From Neomesorhizobium albiziae (GTDB lineage: Bacteria; Pseudomonadota; Alphaproteobacteria; Rhizobiales; Rhizobiaceae), in NCBI RefSeq assembly GCF_900114255.1, contig NZ_FOSL01000011.1:62001-126000 (forward strand): a DNA stretch of 64,000 nucleotides, written 5' to 3'. Each line of letters begins with the position of its first letter. Position 1 is the stretch's first letter. The notes beneath the pieces were generated by a model. That model saw only the letters and a list, made by a program, of their open reading frames with translations. It had not been told where the DNA came from and did not search any database. Made by a program: the position numbers and the translations under genes. Positions 32,506 through 54,949 of the stretch are shown here, piece by piece.

Positions 32506-33006
32506 ATGAAGAAGCTGTTGTCGGGGCTATGCACGGCGGCGCTGGCGCTTTCACTCACCGCCACCAGCCTCCTACCGGTCAATGCAGCGCCAGTCATGGC
32601 GCCGCGCACGACGTCGGCGACAACCGATGTCTGGGATATCCAGTACCGACGGTATCCGCGTCGAGGCGAGTTTCGTCCCGCCTATCGTGGCGAATTCCGC
32701 CGTCCGGCCTATCGTGGCAATTGCTACGGGTGCTTCAACCGCCGCGGTAACATCTACTACTACAACGGCTATCGCGGCTATCGCGACTACCGTCCGGGCT
32801 ACCGCGTATACAACGGCTGGTGGTTCCCGGCGGGTGCCTTTGTCGCTGGCGCGATCATCGGCGGAGCGCTTGCCGCGCCTCCTGCCGTCAGCAGCGGCAA
32901 CGCGCATGTGCGCTGGTGCTACGACCGCTACCGGTCGTATCGGGCTTCCGACAACACCTATCAGCCTTACAACGGCCCGCGCCAGCAGTGCATTTCACCC
33001 TACTGA
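32506..33006 (+). CDS. BA14K family secreted protein
   Basis: 166 residues with signal peptide (ALALSLTATSLLPVNA), a middle rich in R, Y and G (repeated YRG and GYR units), one hydrophobic segment (PAGAFVAGAIIGGALAAP) and the C-terminal BA14K signature CYDRYRSYRASDNTYQPYNG followed by a final Cys. BA14K is a Brucella immunoreactive, lectin-like protein family found throughout Rhizobiales; its cellular role is unclear. The ATG at 32506 has an AGGA site; upstream frame extension overlaps the tRNA leader and is not expected. A terminator follows. Confidence 0.88.
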   Translation: MKKLLSGLCTAALALSLTATSLLPVNAAPVMAPRTTSATTDVWDIQYRRYPRRGEFRPAYRGEFRRPAYRGNCYGCFNRRGNIYYYNGYRGYRDYRPGYRVYNGWWFPAGAFVAGAIIGGALAAPPAVSSGNAHVRWCYDRYRSYRASDNTYQPYNGPRQQCISPY

Positions 33007-44190: not shown

Positions 44191-45357
44191 GTGACGCTCC
44201 GGGGAACCAATCAGGGGTTCGGAAGGCCGTACAATCGGCGCATCGTGCTTGAGTCTGTGCGTCTGCATGGGCCGATCGCGAGAGGCGACATCGCCGAGCG
44301 CGTCGGCCTTACTGTCCAGACCGTTTCCACCATCGTGCGCGAACTCGAGGAGCAGGGATATATCCTCTCCACACGGGAGGAGCCTAAGGGGCGCGGACTG
44401 CCGCCGACAACGCTGACGATCAACCCGGACGGCGGTTATGCGGTTGGTGTCCACGTCACGCCGCTCGGCATCGAAGCGGCCCTGATCAACCTCGATGGTG
44501 ACGTCATCGCGAGCGTGCACCGCGAGGCCGCCCACGCGACGCCCGACCAGGGTTTCGAACTGATCGGCGCCCAGGTTTCCGAACTGATGCGGCTCAAACC
44601 CGGCGGTCGCATGCTCGGCGTCGGCATGGTGATGCCCGGCCCGTTCGGCGTGGATTCCATGAGCTTCGTCGGCCCGACCACGATGAATGGCTGGCAGGAT
44701 GTGGCGCTCAGGGAACGCCTCGCCGAGGTCACCGGCTTGCCGGCATTCTTGGGAACCGACGTGGCGGCGGCGGCCCTCGGCGAACAGCTTTACGGCCTCG
44801 GCGCCGGCTTCTCAGACTATTATTACCTCTATATCGGCGTCGGGCTCGGCGGAACCATGGTGCATGACGCAACCGTGCTTCGCGGCGCCTGGGGCAACGC
44901 CAGCGAGATCGGCCACGTCCCGCTCGTACCTGACGGCGAAGCCTGCCCGTGCGGCAACCGCGGCTGCCTCGAACGCTACCTGTCGCTGGAAGCCCTGGGG
45001 CGGTCGAAGCTCAGCGAAGCCGATTGGGTGGAGAACATCGCGCCGATCTTCCGCAACACCGTCGCAACAATCGAAAACCTGTTCGACCCGGAAACCATCG
45101 TCATTGGCGGGCTGGCGTCCGCCGCCCTGCTGGAACGGCTGGCCGGCACTGTCGAAACCCTTCCCAATTCGGTTTCGGCGCGACGCGACCGTACCGCCCC
45201 TCGCCTGCTGGTGGCGCGCGGCGGCCAGCACTCGGTGTTGCGCGGCGCCGCAGCCCTTGCGGTTTCCGGCGTGCTGTCGCCGCGTTTCGGCCAGATGTTC
45301 ACCGGGGAACGACAGGGTGTGCGTGCCCCTCTGCCAGGCAAGGGAATTGCGGCATGA
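44191..45357 (+). CDS. ROK family transcriptional regulator
   Basis: 388 residues: an N-terminal winged helix-turn-helix (about 15-70, IARGDIAERVGLTVQTVSTI) fused to a ROK sugar-kinase-like domain with the zinc motif CPCGNRGCLE near residue 252 and GTDVAAAALGEQLYG near 190. The HTH makes it a regulator of the NagC/XylR type rather than a kinase. GTG start after GAGGGA. Its stop overlaps the start of the ABC ATPase gene (ATGA), so it is the first gene of the sugar operon and probably senses the imported sugar. Confidence 0.92.
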   Translation: MTLRGTNQGFGRPYNRRIVLESVRLHGPIARGDIAERVGLTVQTVSTIVRELEEQGYILSTREEPKGRGLPPTTLTINPDGGYAVGVHVTPLGIEAALINLDGDVIASVHREAAHATPDQGFELIGAQVSELMRLKPGGRMLGVGMVMPGPFGVDSMSFVGPTTMNGWQDVALRERLAEVTGLPAFLGTDVAAAALGEQLYGLGAGFSDYYYLYIGVGLGGTMVHDATVLRGAWGNASEIGHVPLVPDGEACPCGNRGCLERYLSLEALGRSKLSEADWVENIAPIFRNTVATIENLFDPETIVIGGLASAALLERLAGTVETLPNSVSARRDRTAPRLLVARGGQHSVLRGAAALAVSGVLSPRFGQMFTGERQGVRAPLPGKGIAA

Positions 45358-50872: not shown

Positions 50873-51607
50873 TCAGGTTTCAGGAAAATCCGGCAGGCTT
50901 TTGAAGGCGTTCTTCAGTGCGTTCGACCAGCCGTCGGAGACCGTTCGGTAATAGGGATCGTCGATGCCGATGCGCTTCTTGAAGCCGACCCTCATCGTGT
51001 CCTTCTCATAGAACATCAGGTCGAGTGGCAGGCCGACCGAAAGGTTGGATTTCAGCGTCGAATCGAACGATACGATCAGCAGCTTCGCGGTTTCGGCGAA
51101 ACTCATGGCGCGGTCATAGGCGCGTATGATGATCGGCTTGCCGTATTTGGTCTCGCCGATCTGGAAGAACGGTGTGTCCTCGCTGCATTCGATGAAGTTG
51201 CCTTCCGGATATATCTGGAAGAGCCGCGGCGGCGTGCCCTTGATCTGGCCGCCGAGGATGAAGGAGGCGTTGAAGTAGGAATCAGCCTTCTGGCCAGCGT
51301 CCGCGTGACTGGAAATGACCTCCTTGACCGTATTCCCGACCAGCCGGGCGGTCTGGTACATGGATGGCGTCTCCAGCAGCGTCGGCACCCGGTCGGCAAT
51401 CGACTTGGAGCGTTCATCGAGCAGGCTGACGACGGCCTGCGTCGTGGCCAGGTTCCCGGCGGTCAGAAGCACGATCACGCGTTCGCCGGGGTCCTCCCAG
51501 ACGTGCATCTTGCGGAAGGTCGAGATGGAATCGATTCCGGCGTTGGTGCGCGTGTCCGACATGAAGACGAGGCCGCTATCGATCCTGAGGCCGACGCAAT
51601 AGGTCAT
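50873..51607 (-). CDS. Anbu, bacterial proteasome-type peptidase homolog
   Basis: 244-residue member of the Ntn-hydrolase proteasome superfamily (Anbu). The N-terminus MTYCVGLRIDSGLVFMSDTR places the catalytic threonine right after the initiator Met, so removal of Met would expose Thr1 without a propeptide. SDTRTNAG and LLTAGNLATTQ are the proteasome-fold strands. Purified Anbu proteins from other bacteria form ring or spiral oligomers; the substrate is unsettled. It is the last gene of a four-gene run with transglutaminase-like, alpha-E and ATP-grasp genes, the known conserved context. Confidence 0.93.
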   Translation of the reverse strand: MTYCVGLRIDSGLVFMSDTRTNAGIDSISTFRKMHVWEDPGERVIVLLTAGNLATTQAVVSLLDERSKSIADRVPTLLETPSMYQTARLVGNTVKEVISSHADAGQKADSYFNASFILGGQIKGTPPRLFQIYPEGNFIECSEDTPFFQIGETKYGKPIIIRAYDRAMSFAETAKLLIVSFDSTLKSNLSVGLPLDLMFYEKDTMRVGFKKRIGIDDPYYRTVSDGWSNALKNAFKSLPDFPET

Positions 51608-51640: not shown

Positions 51641-52435
51641 TTACTGCTCCACAGTGATGTGGACTGCAAGCTGTTCTTGCGCTTGTCCAAGCCGAATGCC
51701 GGAGACCGGCATGGCTTCGCGGTAGTCGCGGCCGGTTGCGACGCGGACGTAGCGCGCGTCGGCGGAAATGCCGTTGGCGACATCGAAGGCGACCCAGCCG
51801 AGATTGGCGACATGGGCTTCCGCCCAGGCGTGGGTGGCAACCTGGTCGAGCCTGTCGTTCATCATCAGGTAGCCGCTGACATAACGCGCGGGGAAACCGA
51901 GCAGCCGGGCGGCGGATGTGAAAATATGGGTGTGGTCCTGGCACACCCCGGTGCCCTGGAGCAACGCCTCCTCGGCTGAAGTTCCGGAATCGGTGGCGCC
52001 GACCGTGTAGGCGACACGCTCGCGGATGTTCCCCATCAGCCGGTGCAACCGGTCGAGATCGGAGCCGCCGCCAACGCCTCCAGCCAGCGCTCGGATGCCG
52101 TCGCCTGCGGTGGTGAGGCGCGTTTCGCTGCCAAACAGCCACAGCGGCGCGAAGCCGCGATGTGCGCCCATGACGCCCGCCGTGTCGTGGGTCTCGACCT
52201 CGCCCGACGCTTCGACGCTGATGACATGCGGATCGCCCTCGACGCTCAGCAGCCGGGTGTCATTGCCGAAGTGATCGGTAAAGCGCACCTCCTCGCGCGC
52301 CCCGTCGATGGTGAGCGACCATGTTTTGATGGTCTGCGCCGGGCCGCCATAGGGCACCAGCCGCAGCCGCTGCAGCGCGTAAAGGAGCGGGGCATCGTAC
52401 CGGTATTCGGTGCGGTGGGAGATTTTCAGAAGCAT
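51641..52435 (-). CDS. Transglutaminase-like cysteine peptidase family protein (Anbu-associated)
   Basis: 264 residues with an N-terminal beta domain (MLLKISHRTEYRYDAPL) and a C-terminal transglutaminase core. The catalytic triad is visible: Cys165 in GVCQDHTHIF, His202 in THAWAEAHV and Asp218 in WVAFDVANG. No signal peptide, so it acts in the cytoplasm, probably as a peptidase or amidotransferase rather than a true cross-linker. It sits 33 bases before the Anbu start and 12 after alpha-E. Confidence 0.9.
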   Translation of the reverse strand: MLLKISHRTEYRYDAPLLYALQRLRLVPYGGPAQTIKTWSLTIDGAREEVRFTDHFGNDTRLLSVEGDPHVISVEASGEVETHDTAGVMGAHRGFAPLWLFGSETRLTTAGDGIRALAGGVGGGSDLDRLHRLMGNIRERVAYTVGATDSGTSAEEALLQGTGVCQDHTHIFTSAARLLGFPARYVSGYLMMNDRLDQVATHAWAEAHVANLGWVAFDVANGISADARYVRVATGRDYREAMPVSGIRLGQAQEQLAVHITVEQ

Positions 52436-52447
52436 GCGGTCTCGCCG

Positions 52448-53389
52448 TCAGTAGAAGCGGAAGTTCTGTGCGACCTCATCGCCCAGCCGGTTGTTGTCGC
52501 GGATGAAATCGATCAGGAACTCGTGCAGGCCGGCATCGAAAATGTCCTTGATCGAGTTCACCCTGAGCTTGGAGAGCGTCTGGTCGAGCGTGTCGTGGCA
52601 GCAGTGGCGCGTGCCGTAGTCCTTTTCCAGGTAGGACAGGCTTTCCGAGATGTTCAGGTAGCAGAAGGCGAGCGAGCGCGGCATGCGCCCGTTGAGAATG
52701 AGGTAGTCGGCTATGTTGGTCGGCCGGTAGTCGGCTTCATAGACCCAGCGGTAGGAGCGGTGCGCGGCGACCGAGCGCAGGATCGATTCCCACTGGTAGT
52801 TGTCGAGCGTCGAGCCGACCCACGCGATCGATGGCAACAGCACATAGTACTTAACGTCGAGAATGCGCGCGGTGTTGTCGGCACGTTCGATGAAGGTGCC
52901 GAGCTGGGCGAAGTCGAAATTCTCGTTGCGCAGCGCGGTGCCGTGCAGCGAACCGCGGATCAGCGCCGTCTCGCGCTTGATGGCGTCGAGCACGCTCGGC
53001 AGTTCGCGCTGGTCGACCGGGCTTGCCAGCATGCGCTTCAGCGCCATCCAGGCCTCGTTGATCGATTCCCAGGTTTCGCGCGTCAGCGCCGTTCGCACCA
53101 TGCGGGCATTGTTGCGCGCTGTCTCGATCGCCACCATGACGCTCGACGAATTGGCCGGGTCGCGGAGCAGGAAATCGGATACGGTTTCAGCCGTAACCTC
53201 TTGATGTTTCTGGTTGAAAGCATGCTCGGCGCCGGCGCTGAGCAGCACCGAATTCCACTCGTCCGAGGAACTGGCGGTGCGCGTCAGCGCCATGCGAAGG
53301 CCGGCGTCGAGCAGCCGCGCCATGTTCTCCGTGCGCTCGATATAGCGGCTCATCCAGTAGAGGCCATTGGCAGTGCGGCCGAGGAGCAT
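52448..53389 (-). CDS. Alpha-E domain-containing protein (Anbu-associated)
   Basis: 313-residue all-helical protein of the alpha-E family: starts MLLGRTANGLYWMSRYIERTENMARLLDAG and has the repeated ERTEN/ERADNTAR-type signatures (residues 18-21 and near 168). Proposed in comparative genomics to work with ATP-grasp ligases in peptide or amide synthesis; no reaction is established. The space before the start contains a long heptamer inverted repeat ending 21 bases upstream of the ATG. GGAG lies about nine bases before the ATG. Confidence 0.9.
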   Translation of the reverse strand: MLLGRTANGLYWMSRYIERTENMARLLDAGLRMALTRTASSSDEWNSVLLSAGAEHAFNQKHQEVTAETVSDFLLRDPANSSSVMVAIETARNNARMVRTALTRETWESINEAWMALKRMLASPVDQRELPSVLDAIKRETALIRGSLHGTALRNENFDFAQLGTFIERADNTARILDVKYYVLLPSIAWVGSTLDNYQWESILRSVAAHRSYRWVYEADYRPTNIADYLILNGRMPRSLAFCYLNISESLSYLEKDYGTRHCCHDTLDQTLSKLRVNSIKDIFDAGLHEFLIDFIRDNNRLGDEVAQNFRFY

Positions 53390-53409
53390 TAGCGTGCGGC
53401 TCCATAAAC

Positions 53410-53534
53410 GGTGAATGGTGAATGGTAAATGGTGAATGGAAAGCCAAACAAATGAACCGACGGCAGGTTCATCTCGCTGCAGCGCCTAATTCCAGCTGAT
53501 TGACCATTCACCATTTTACCATTCACCATTCACC
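53410..53534. repeat. Inverted repeat built from GGTGAAT heptamers inside the Anbu operon
   Basis: Left arm 53410-53439 reads GGTGAATGGTGAATGG then GTAAATGGTGAATGG-type units; right arm 53504-53534 is its reverse complement with one extra T. Thus 30-31 bp arms, one indel, and a 64-base spacer. Each arm is itself about four tandem heptamers. It fills the 147-bp gap between the ATP-grasp and alpha-E genes, and an RNA copy would fold into a long hairpin close to the alpha-E ribosome site. Confidence 0.9.
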
Positions 53535-53536
53535 AC

Positions 53537-54949
53537 CTAATCATCCAGCACCCACGTATCCTTCGTGCCGCCGCCCTGCGAGGAGTTGACCACCAGCGAT
53601 CCCTCTTTCAGCGCGACGCGGGTCAGGCCGCCGGGCACGATCTGGATGCGGTCCGAGACCAGGACGAACGGCCTCAGATCGACATGACGTGGCGCCAGCC
53701 CCTTTTCGGTGAGGATCGGGCAGGTCGACAGCGAAAGTGTCGGCTGGGCGATGTAGTTGGAAGGCCGCGCCATCAGCTTCTTGGCGAAATCCTCGCGCTC
53801 CTTCTTCGAGGCAGTCGGGCCTACCAGCATGCCGTAGCCGCCGGAGCCGTGCACCTCCTTCACCACAAGCTCGGCCAGGTGCTCCATCACATATTTCAGG
53901 CTGTCGGGTTCGGAGCAGCGCCAGGTTGGGATGTTGCCGAGTATCGCCTTGCGGCCGGTGTAGAACTCGACGATCTCGGGCATGTAGGAGTAGATCGCCT
54001 TGTCGTCGGCAATCCCGGTCCCCGGCGCGTTGGCGATGGTGATGTTGCCGGCCCGGTAGACGTCCATGATGCCTGGCACGCCCAGCGTGGAGTCCGGCTT
54101 GAAGGTCAGCGGGTCGAGATAGGCGTCGTCGACGCGGCGGTAGAGCACGTCGATCTGCTTGTAGCCTTCGGTGGTGCGCATGGCCACGTGGCCGTCGATC
54201 ACCCTGAGATCCTGGCCTTCGACCAGTTCGACGCCCATCTGGTCGGCAAGGAAGGCGTGTTCGAAATAGGCGGAGTTGTAGCTGCCCGGCGTCAGCACCG
54301 CGACACGCGGCGCGTCGTGCGCGTTGTCGGGTTTCACCGCCGACAGCGACTGGCGCAAGAGCTGCGGATAGTTCTCGACCGGCCGCACCTTCACCCGCTG
54401 GAACAGTTCGGGGAAGAGTTGCATCATCGTCTCGCGGTTCTCCAGCATGTAGGAGACCCCAGAGGGCGTGCGCGCATTGTCCTCGAGCACGTAGAATTCG
54501 TCCTCGCCAGTGCGCACGATGTCGACGCCGATGATGTGGGTGTAGACGCCTTTCGGCGGCCTCACGCCGATCATTTCCGGCAGGAAGGCCTCGTTTGAGG
54601 CGATCAGTTCCTTCGGCACGCGGCCGGCGCGCAGGATTTCCTGGCGGTGGTAGATGTCGTCGAGGAAGGCGTTGAGCGCCTGCACCCGCTGCTCGATGCC
54701 TTGCGTGAGCCGCCGCCATTCCGATCCGGAAATGATGCGCGGGACGATGTCGAAGGGGATCAGCCGCTCGGCCGCCTCTTCCTCGCCATAGACGGCGAAG
54801 GTAATGCCCGTCTTGCGGAAGACGCGCTCGGCGTCGCGCATTTTTTCGGTAAGCCTTGTGGGGTCCTGGGCCTGGAACCAGCGATCGTAAGCCGAATATG
54901 GTTTGCGCAACCCCGTATCTTGGGGGTGCATTTCATCGAATGCCGTCAC
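53537..54949 (-). CDS. Circularly permuted ATP-grasp protein (Anbu-associated)
   Basis: 470 residues of the circularly permuted ATP-grasp type 2 family. Visible conserved segments: YVLEDNARTPSGVSYMLENR, LTPGSYNSAYFEHAFLADQM, YRAGNITIANAPGTGIADDK and VVKEVHGSGGYGMLVGP, the last carrying the ATP-binding lysine and Gly-rich loop. Such enzymes ligate an acid to an amine using ATP; the substrate of this family is unknown. It is first in the run ATP-grasp, alpha-E, transglutaminase-like, Anbu. Preceded by a 319-bp space with small palindromes. Confidence 0.92.
   Translation of the reverse strand: MTAFDEMHPQDTGLRKPYSAYDRWFQAQDPTRLTEKMRDAERVFRKTGITFAVYGEEEAAERLIPFDIVPRIISGSEWRRLTQGIEQRVQALNAFLDDIYHRQEILRAGRVPKELIASNEAFLPEMIGVRPPKGVYTHIIGVDIVRTGEDEFYVLEDNARTPSGVSYMLENRETMMQLFPELFQRVKVRPVENYPQLLRQSLSAVKPDNAHDAPRVAVLTPGSYNSAYFEHAFLADQMGVELVEGQDLRVIDGHVAMRTTEGYKQIDVLYRRVDDAYLDPLTFKPDSTLGVPGIMDVYRAGNITIANAPGTGIADDKAIYSYMPEIVEFYTGRKAILGNIPTWRCSEPDSLKYVMEHLAELVVKEVHGSGGYGMLVGPTASKKEREDFAKKLMARPSNYIAQPTLSLSTCPILTEKGLAPRHVDLRPFVLVSDRIQIVPGGLTRVALKEGSLVVNSSQGGGTKDTWVLDD

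Follow-up and report, generated by a model that had tools for sequence, protein, structure and literature searches.

What kind of sequence separates the ATP-grasp and alpha-E genes of a proteasome-like operon, and how did it come to stand there? The window (the whole 64,000-nucleotide stretch of Neomesorhizobium albiziae DNA analysed) raises this question with a pair of inverted GGTGAAT arrays placed between two genes that are read in the same direction. The features concerned, in operon order, are the following.

53537..54949, minus strand, circularly permuted ATP-grasp gene, the upstream neighbour (ORF; Pfam PF14403/PF04174)
53504..53534, minus strand, first arm of GGTGAAT-type units, 31 nt, starting 2 nt past the ATP-grasp stop
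53440..53503, minus strand, spacer (loop) of 64 nt, differing by eye from the spacers of the genome's other hairpins
53450..53474, minus strand, inner hairpin within the spacer with a broken T-run, a weak terminator-like match that appears in both RNA and DNA folds
53410..53439, minus strand, second arm, with ATTCACC-type units on the operon strand, 30 nt, ending 20 nt before the alpha-E ATG
53400..53403, minus strand, GGAG, the likely alpha-E ribosome-binding site judging from the sequence, free between hairpin and start codon
52448..53389, minus strand, alpha-E gene, the downstream neighbour (ORF; Pfam PF04168)
51641..52435, minus strand, transglutaminase-like gene of the same gene run (ORF; Pfam PF01841/PF08379)
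50873..51607, minus strand, proteasome-like gene, called Anbu in the first-pass annotation (ORF; Pfam PF00227)

Anatomy and folding of the window hairpin

The two arms are reverse complements save for one extra base, which leaves a one-base bulge, and the arms, single-base indel and 64-base spacer described in the first-pass annotation were all confirmed. TRF resolved both arms as period-7 arrays, with 4.3 copies at 53410-53439 and 5.1 copies at 53499-53535, and both contain an odd unit, GGTAAAT, at mirrored positions. The gap that they fill is, as had been said, the sizeable one of the operon: by ORF coordinates it measures 147 nt, against 12 nt between alpha-E and transglutaminase and 33 nt between transglutaminase and Anbu. 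The RNA fold of this gap had an energy of -67.3 kcal/mol (z -7.1) and its DNA fold a z of -8.4, and in either case none of 200 shuffles was as good. The window repeat is a genuine RNA hairpin by fold, with chance excluded by the shuffles, and the strong hairpin ending 20 nt from the alpha-E ATG that had been proposed was borne out.

The operon strand contained one terminator-like match, the inner hairpin of the spacer, where 0.2 were expected. The arms themselves were rejected as an intrinsic terminator, the loop being 64 nt long and a T-run being absent behind them. Positions 53200-53700 gave no match to known RNA families in Rfam. Two other short tandem repeats occur in the window, at 32674-32722 (27-base unit) and 44547-44593 (24-base unit), each with about two copies.

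GGTGAAT hairpins across the genome

A search of the window's own genome (G000) for further arrays, as the first-pass annotation had suggested, was productive: GGTGAATGGTGAATGG, with up to two mismatches, matched 50 times and the same pattern read backwards once. The 50 matches fall into 13 places, of which L020, a lone match with no partner, was left out, giving 12 hairpins. In every one of the 12, the left arm is built of GGTGAAT-type and the right arm of ATTCACC-type units (the right arm of L017 is short), and the spacers look unrelated when judged by eye. A pattern of two fixed 16-mers 20-50 nt apart had no match, the own genome included. Host genes were named by reading translations, with an annotation match also backing nuoC; so read, the gaps that hold hairpins include nuoC-nuoD, rpoA-rplQ, atpD-atpC, sucD-sucA, add-upp, an RNase J/epimerase pair and others. 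At L016, L018 and L019 the gene-less hairpin is embedded in a core operon (rpoA-rplQ, atpD-atpC and sucD-sucA, as read).

A hairpin special to the Anbu operon, as initially envisaged, is not what the genome contains, since like hairpins stand in unrelated operons. Random intergenic scatter, which the first-pass annotation had named as the outcome that would count against its proposal, was found in part: the hairpins are scattered, but 11 of the 12 lie in gaps between co-directional genes and only L014 between convergent ones (by codon-usage ORF call).

One of these hairpins, that of nuoC-nuoD (L010), encloses a 129-codon frame for a 23S rRNA intervening sequence protein (IVP), running in the same direction as those genes.

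L010:1147-1587 (G000 C1:48147-48586), sense with nuoC-nuoD, the genome's own IVP gene (PF05635)

This frame is the sole PF05635 match in the genome (E 8e-36). Its product matches TIGR02436, 'four helix bundle protein', and has 2gsc (XCC0516) and 2rld as relatives in the PDB. A weak resemblance to the DGR protein Avd was seen (E 1e-4 to 1e-3 in NCBIfam, below cut-off, and 0.007 in Pfam), and the profile and structure libraries searched gave no known catalytic domain.

Inverted arrays around IVP genes

PF05635 was present in 115 of 394 genomes of Rhizobiaceae (in the GTDB sense). From these we took 131 IVP loci (L021-L051, L082-L181) and eight more reached via alpha-E (L055 repeats L046), together 139 rows, of which one was too short and 138 were scored with an inverted score of at least 12 as the arm cut-off; the last ten PF05635 matches, mostly fragments, were left out, one of those genes being included through L079. 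Inverted arms flanked the IVP gene in 133 of the 138 rows and in 2 of 138 with letter-shuffled flanks. Because many loci share repeat units, 43 of 138 also passed this cut-off when flanks were paired randomly between loci. The rows without clear arms were L043, L047, L107, L112 and L171.

The association extends well beyond the family. A phylum-wide search detected PF05635 in 62 of 398 genomes, and 21 of 24 sampled loci had arms (shuffled, 0 of 24; L194, L197 and L198 lacked clear arms), six of the 24 being from Rhizobiaceae and five of those already in the family set. Among named genomes, arms were found at 78 of the best 80 of 563 IVP relatives (shuffled, 0 of 80), in about ten phyla; at the two misses, L250 and L275, the frame ends early and the right flank is misplaced as a result. 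Judged by title, these best 80 of 563 include loci from Cyanobacteria, Planctomycetes, Acidobacteria, Chloroflexus, Bacteroidetes, Fibrobacteres, Gemmatimonadetes, Cloacimonetes, SAR324 and a Clostridia MAG. Twenty of the 80, all outside Rhizobiaceae, were searched against Rfam and gave no match, hence no rRNA.

Family and named sets together comprise 219 rows, 201 of them distinct. Arrays with a tandem score of at least 11 always had a period of 7 or 8 (150 and 60, respectively, in the family; 99 and 23 in the named loci), whereas weaker arrays include other periods. The median element length was 462 nt and the median arm 31 nt, with arms of at least 20 nt in 124 of 131. In our search of the open-licence literature, no paper was found that connects IVP genes with tandem heptamer arms other than in rRNA.

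Placement between stop codon and ribosome-binding site

Placement was analysed at 132 armed Rhizobiaceae loci, the upstream gene being taken as the best-scoring ORF that ends between -200 and +45 nt of the arm start. The upstream gene was co-directional with the IVP in 131 of 132 loci and the downstream gene in 123 of the 129 called. The stop-to-arm distance had a median of 1 nt (quartiles -3 and 5) and was within 15 nt in 119 of 131; from arm to next start the median was 17 nt (quartiles 13 and 24), with 110 of 123 values between -10 and 30. The distances at the window hairpin, 2 and 20 nt, agree with this rule, and the spacing of about 20 nt before the alpha-E start, noted earlier as a feature of this site, is therefore not peculiar to it. 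At many loci the first repeat unit contains the host stop codon (stop-to-arm distance below zero), and units such as GTGAATG and AATAGCG carry TGA or TAG.

In Flavobacterium columnare, a 'four helix bundle protein' gene stands 36 and 34 nt from guanylate kinase and nadD and is tabulated among phage elements (PMC5524665). Gene-less copies were sampled at 40 GGTGAAT loci. Twenty-six were hairpins without a gene, 19 between co-directional, four between convergent and one between divergent genes, with two uncalled; the hairpin finder was crude, and the 14 of 40 that it left partnerless include L317 and L330, whose two arms are visible. In each of the four convergent pairs (L291, L295, L300 and L306), the two genes have their stop codons at or close to the gene-less hairpin.

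The ATP-grasp/alpha-E gap in relatives

Thirty Rhizobiaceae genomes have an IVP gene inside the same ATP-grasp/alpha-E gap, although the contig of L145 stops before alpha-E and at least two of the genes are broken (L079, L061). An alpha-E match was obtained in 125 of 150 genomes, and the best 30 alpha-E loci were read: eight have an IVP gene with arms, three have gene-less arms (the window, L056 and L076) and 19 have neither. The congener (G001) has a bare gap of 62 nt, which shows no readable likeness to that of the window and on which the comparison for a target duplication rests.

The IVP tree was built with FastTree from 135 rows and 124 columns, and its deep support is weak. On it the 29 alpha-E-site IVP proteins cluster, with 2 changes against a shuffled mean of 26.6, and for this reason these genes seem to have been mostly inherited in place. 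Arm match scores at the gap had a median of 23.5 within loci and 10 between loci, and the left arm had its best partner in its own right arm at just 9 of 31 alpha-E-gap loci and 23 of 60 random loci.

The window spacer, compared with IVP-gene leaders, reached a best score of 12 where the shuffled maximum was also 12, so no IVP remnant was seen. The corresponding values for L076 (13, shuffled 11) and L056 (14, shuffled 13) are both weak, the shuffles having been run against leaders alone and both spacers containing part of an arm. None of the alpha-E-site IVP rows has tandem GGTGAAT, and L054 has two single units. Simple deletion of an alpha-E-site IVP element was rejected as the source of the window hairpin, there being no spacer remnant and the repeat unit differing from that of the relatives.

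Repeat unit and IVP lineage

The type of repeat unit tracks the IVP clade across differing sites, 8-mers included. The GGTGAAT clade comprises 14 IVP rows with 99% support, the own nuoC-nuoD IVP among them; at least two GGTGAAT units flank 13 of these 14, while 2 of the 125 other rows have two scattered units. This clade is separate from the alpha-E-site type, and on that basis the window hairpin was assigned to the GGTGAAT lineage: it most likely belongs to that lineage and stands in a gap held elsewhere by another.

The same link is visible across whole genomes. GGTGAATGGTGAATGG occurred in 47 of the 394 Rhizobiaceae genomes, and its backward control in none. Counting own arms, it was present in 13 of the 14 genomes with a GGTGAAT-clade IVP against 34 of 380 others; away from the own IVP arms, it was present in 7 of 8 judged clade genomes against 34 of 380 (Fisher 7e-7; among the matches listed). 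The octamer behaved likewise: GGGGAGTAGGGGAGTA was found in 37 of 394 genomes, and away from own arms the octamer GGGGAGTA occurred in 6 of the 10 genomes judged and in 24 of the 380 others (p 2e-5, among the matches listed). When own arms are included the octamer count becomes 13 of 14 against 24 of 380, a comparison that is partly circular because those genomes were chosen by their arms. Co-inheritance of unit and gene as one element accounts for the association, and binding of the unit by the IVP is possible. The highest count among the 394 genomes, 97 copies of GGTGAATGGTGAATGG, was in an 8.4-Mb genome (G064).

Change in the arms between species

Flanking homology identified arrays common to G000 and G001 at four places (L009/L327, L016/L330, L017/L340 and L018/L317). 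At rpoA-rplQ and atpD-atpC the two arms can be seen in each species, the spacers have diverged and units have changed. In G001, one arm of the shared atpD-atpC hairpin lacks two units (14 nt) that remain in the other arm, in line with the length variation that the first-pass annotation expected of tandem heptamers. Strict conservation of pairing between the two genomes was rejected on the same observation. The earlier view that such exact arms are recent or under selection needs a third option, that one arm is corrected by the other, and slippage with correction may be a means of keeping existing arms matched.

Arm mismatches read on the sense strand at 184 distinct loci comprised 242 G-U and 174 A-C (p 0.001), or 74 against 49 by locus (p 0.03). 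This excess gives mild support to pairing in the sense RNA, although strand-biased deamination could yield the same excess.

Interpretation of the window repeat

The window repeat probably belongs, as a copy without a gene, to a family of elements of the intervening-sequence (IVS) type, and it would be cut by RNase III in operon mRNA. The full element, of about 460 nt, consists of an IVP gene (four-helix-bundle, PF05635) between inverted arrays of 7- or 8-nt units and lies in the sense orientation, after a stop codon and ahead of the ribosome-binding site that serves the following gene. In polycistronic mRNA the arms would pair to a helix of about 30 bp, a length sufficient for RNase III, and by analogy with the excision of 23S rRNA IVS the enzyme would be expected to cut the operon hairpin. 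We infer cutting in mRNA from the fact that the Coxiella IVS and the operon elements have the same parts. Such a cut would part the upstream from the downstream message and leave a short leader, ribosome-binding site included, on the downstream gene, and uncoupling of the genes, as the first-pass annotation proposed, is plausible by this route. The IVP would presumably be expressed by read-through from the host operon, the elements may be mobile, and the window copy may have lost its gene or been moved in trans. Several findings weigh against this reading: G001 has no PF05635 match, yet it keeps gene-less arrays and hairpins, with 34 near matches; 34 genomes hold GGTGAAT arrays without an IVP of the GGTGAAT clade; the window spacer has no visible IVP remnant and its unit is not that of the IVP elements in this gap; and the unequal arms at atpD-atpC, the arm-like scores of flanks from different loci, the small share of loci whose own arms pair best and the rows lacking clear arms count on the same side.

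A conventional DNA mobile element, whose arrays are recognised by a transposase-like activity and whose gene-less copies are MITE-like, is a possible reading that we hold to be somewhat doubtful. Placement would then be what selection has left, because other sites break genes or leave the IVP unexpressed. Copies with and without a gene, alike in their arms, are indeed scattered in the genome, IVP elements occur in many phyla, and the repeat of a given IVP type recurs elsewhere in the genomes that carry it (the GGTGAAT and GGGGAGTA counts given above, among the matches listed). Against this stand the 12 spacers, which look unrelated, unlike those of MITEs; the lack of a readable target duplication, the empty G001 gap not aligning with that of the window; and an IVP without a known catalytic domain in the libraries searched.

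That the window hairpin is instead a decayed copy of the alpha-E-site IVP element found in related genera, with arms since converted to the resident IVP's GGTGAAT unit, appears unlikely. The 30 relatives with an IVP gene in this gap and the gene-less arms of L056 and L076 there fit such a history; the lack of tandem GGTGAAT in alpha-E-site IVP rows and of an IVP remnant in the window spacer do not, and G064 retains old-type gene-less arms at this place despite having a GGTGAAT-type IVP elsewhere. A hairpin selected as a terminator or decoupler, which would part the expression of alpha-E, transglutaminase and Anbu from that of ATP-grasp, is rather less probable still. The strong fold suits it, as does the operon-strand inner hairpin with its weak likeness to a terminator, and in Xanthomonas transcripts start or stop in G4-forming heptamers more than in control repeats (PMC4692102); set against these, the hairpin is absent from the 62-nt gap of G001, arms and IVP are both missing at 19 of 30 alpha-E loci, and similar hairpins stand in unrelated operons. 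Least credible is a slippage-born heptamer array whose inverted partner was perfected by template switching (quasi-palindrome correction), with neither element nor function, which accords with the differences in copy number and units between G000 and G001 at orthologous places and the mirrored GGTAAAT but leaves unexplained the IVP genes between arms in both sets, the placement at stop codons and the link of unit to clade.

Comparison with known systems

REP/REPIN and MITE are dispersed short palindromic elements with gene-less copies. The window family differs from both in that its spacers are unlike between copies, its arms are tandem 7-8-mers and its linked gene is an IVP; the common internal sequence of a MITE is missing, the 12 spacers differing by eye.

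Other tandem heptamers have been described as TAACTGA in Beggiatoaceae (PMC4679880), GGGACCG in Geobacter (PMC2700814) and GATAGRA in Chloroflexus (PMC6749651). Most TAACTGA sets are direct repeats that precede start codons (PMC4679880), and the portions of the three accounts available name no IVP gene. In the G-rich heptamers of Xanthomonas (GGGAATC) and Nostoc four units are preferred, and they are mostly intergenic, near or overlapping stop codons, with 70 and 75 inverted pairs in two Xanthomonas genomes and few in Nostoc (PMC4692102). The window arms show the same pattern, with 4.3 and 5.1 units in an intergenic gap, 2 nt from the ATP-grasp stop. In that study the repeats are treated as G-quadruplex repeats, and in its main text the terms 'intervening', '23S', 'helix bundle' and 'XCC0516' are all absent (PMC4692102).

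A much wider reading is conceivable, and we think it unlikely: IVP elements would be a widespread selfish class that colonises mRNA in sense between stop codon and ribosome-binding site, possibly via an RNA intermediate, and is excised by RNase III; the IVP, a distant relative of Avd, would recognise the arms and co-evolve with the 7-8-nt unit, and the heptamers of Xanthomonas, Nostoc and other bacteria would be arms or remains of such elements. Bacterial heptamer repeats have been the subject of several reports, with no common explanation so far. If IVP genes lie between arrays in the operons of many phyla, the puzzles of the rRNA IVS and of the heptamers would merge, and the question would become testable in ordinary culturable bacteria. 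It would also account for an operon that carries a 130-nt intergenic hairpin in one of two related species and lacks it in the other.

The closest known counterpart is the 23S IVS of Coxiella burnetii. It is 428 nt long with a 28-bp terminal stem and an S23p ORF, preceded by tandem heptamers whose number varies between strains; RNase III cuts it in vitro, the excised RNA is degraded and S23p was inferred not to be produced (PMC4990558). The same source calls the origin and role of the rRNA IVS and of the S23/IVP protein unclear. The operon elements resemble it in their S23p/IVP ORF, in length (428 against a median of 462 nt) and in their terminal repeats (28 bp against arms of about 31 nt). 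In the window copy the stem is comparable (about 28 bp in the IVS; arms of 30 and 31 nt and a z of -7.1 here) and the tandem units have a period of 7. This copy lacks an ORF in its 64-nt spacer, which its sister copy at L010 has, and it lies between protein genes and not in 23S rRNA. For these two differences we call it an IVS-like relative and not a 23S IVS: a known kind of element, in a setting undescribed in openly searchable papers.
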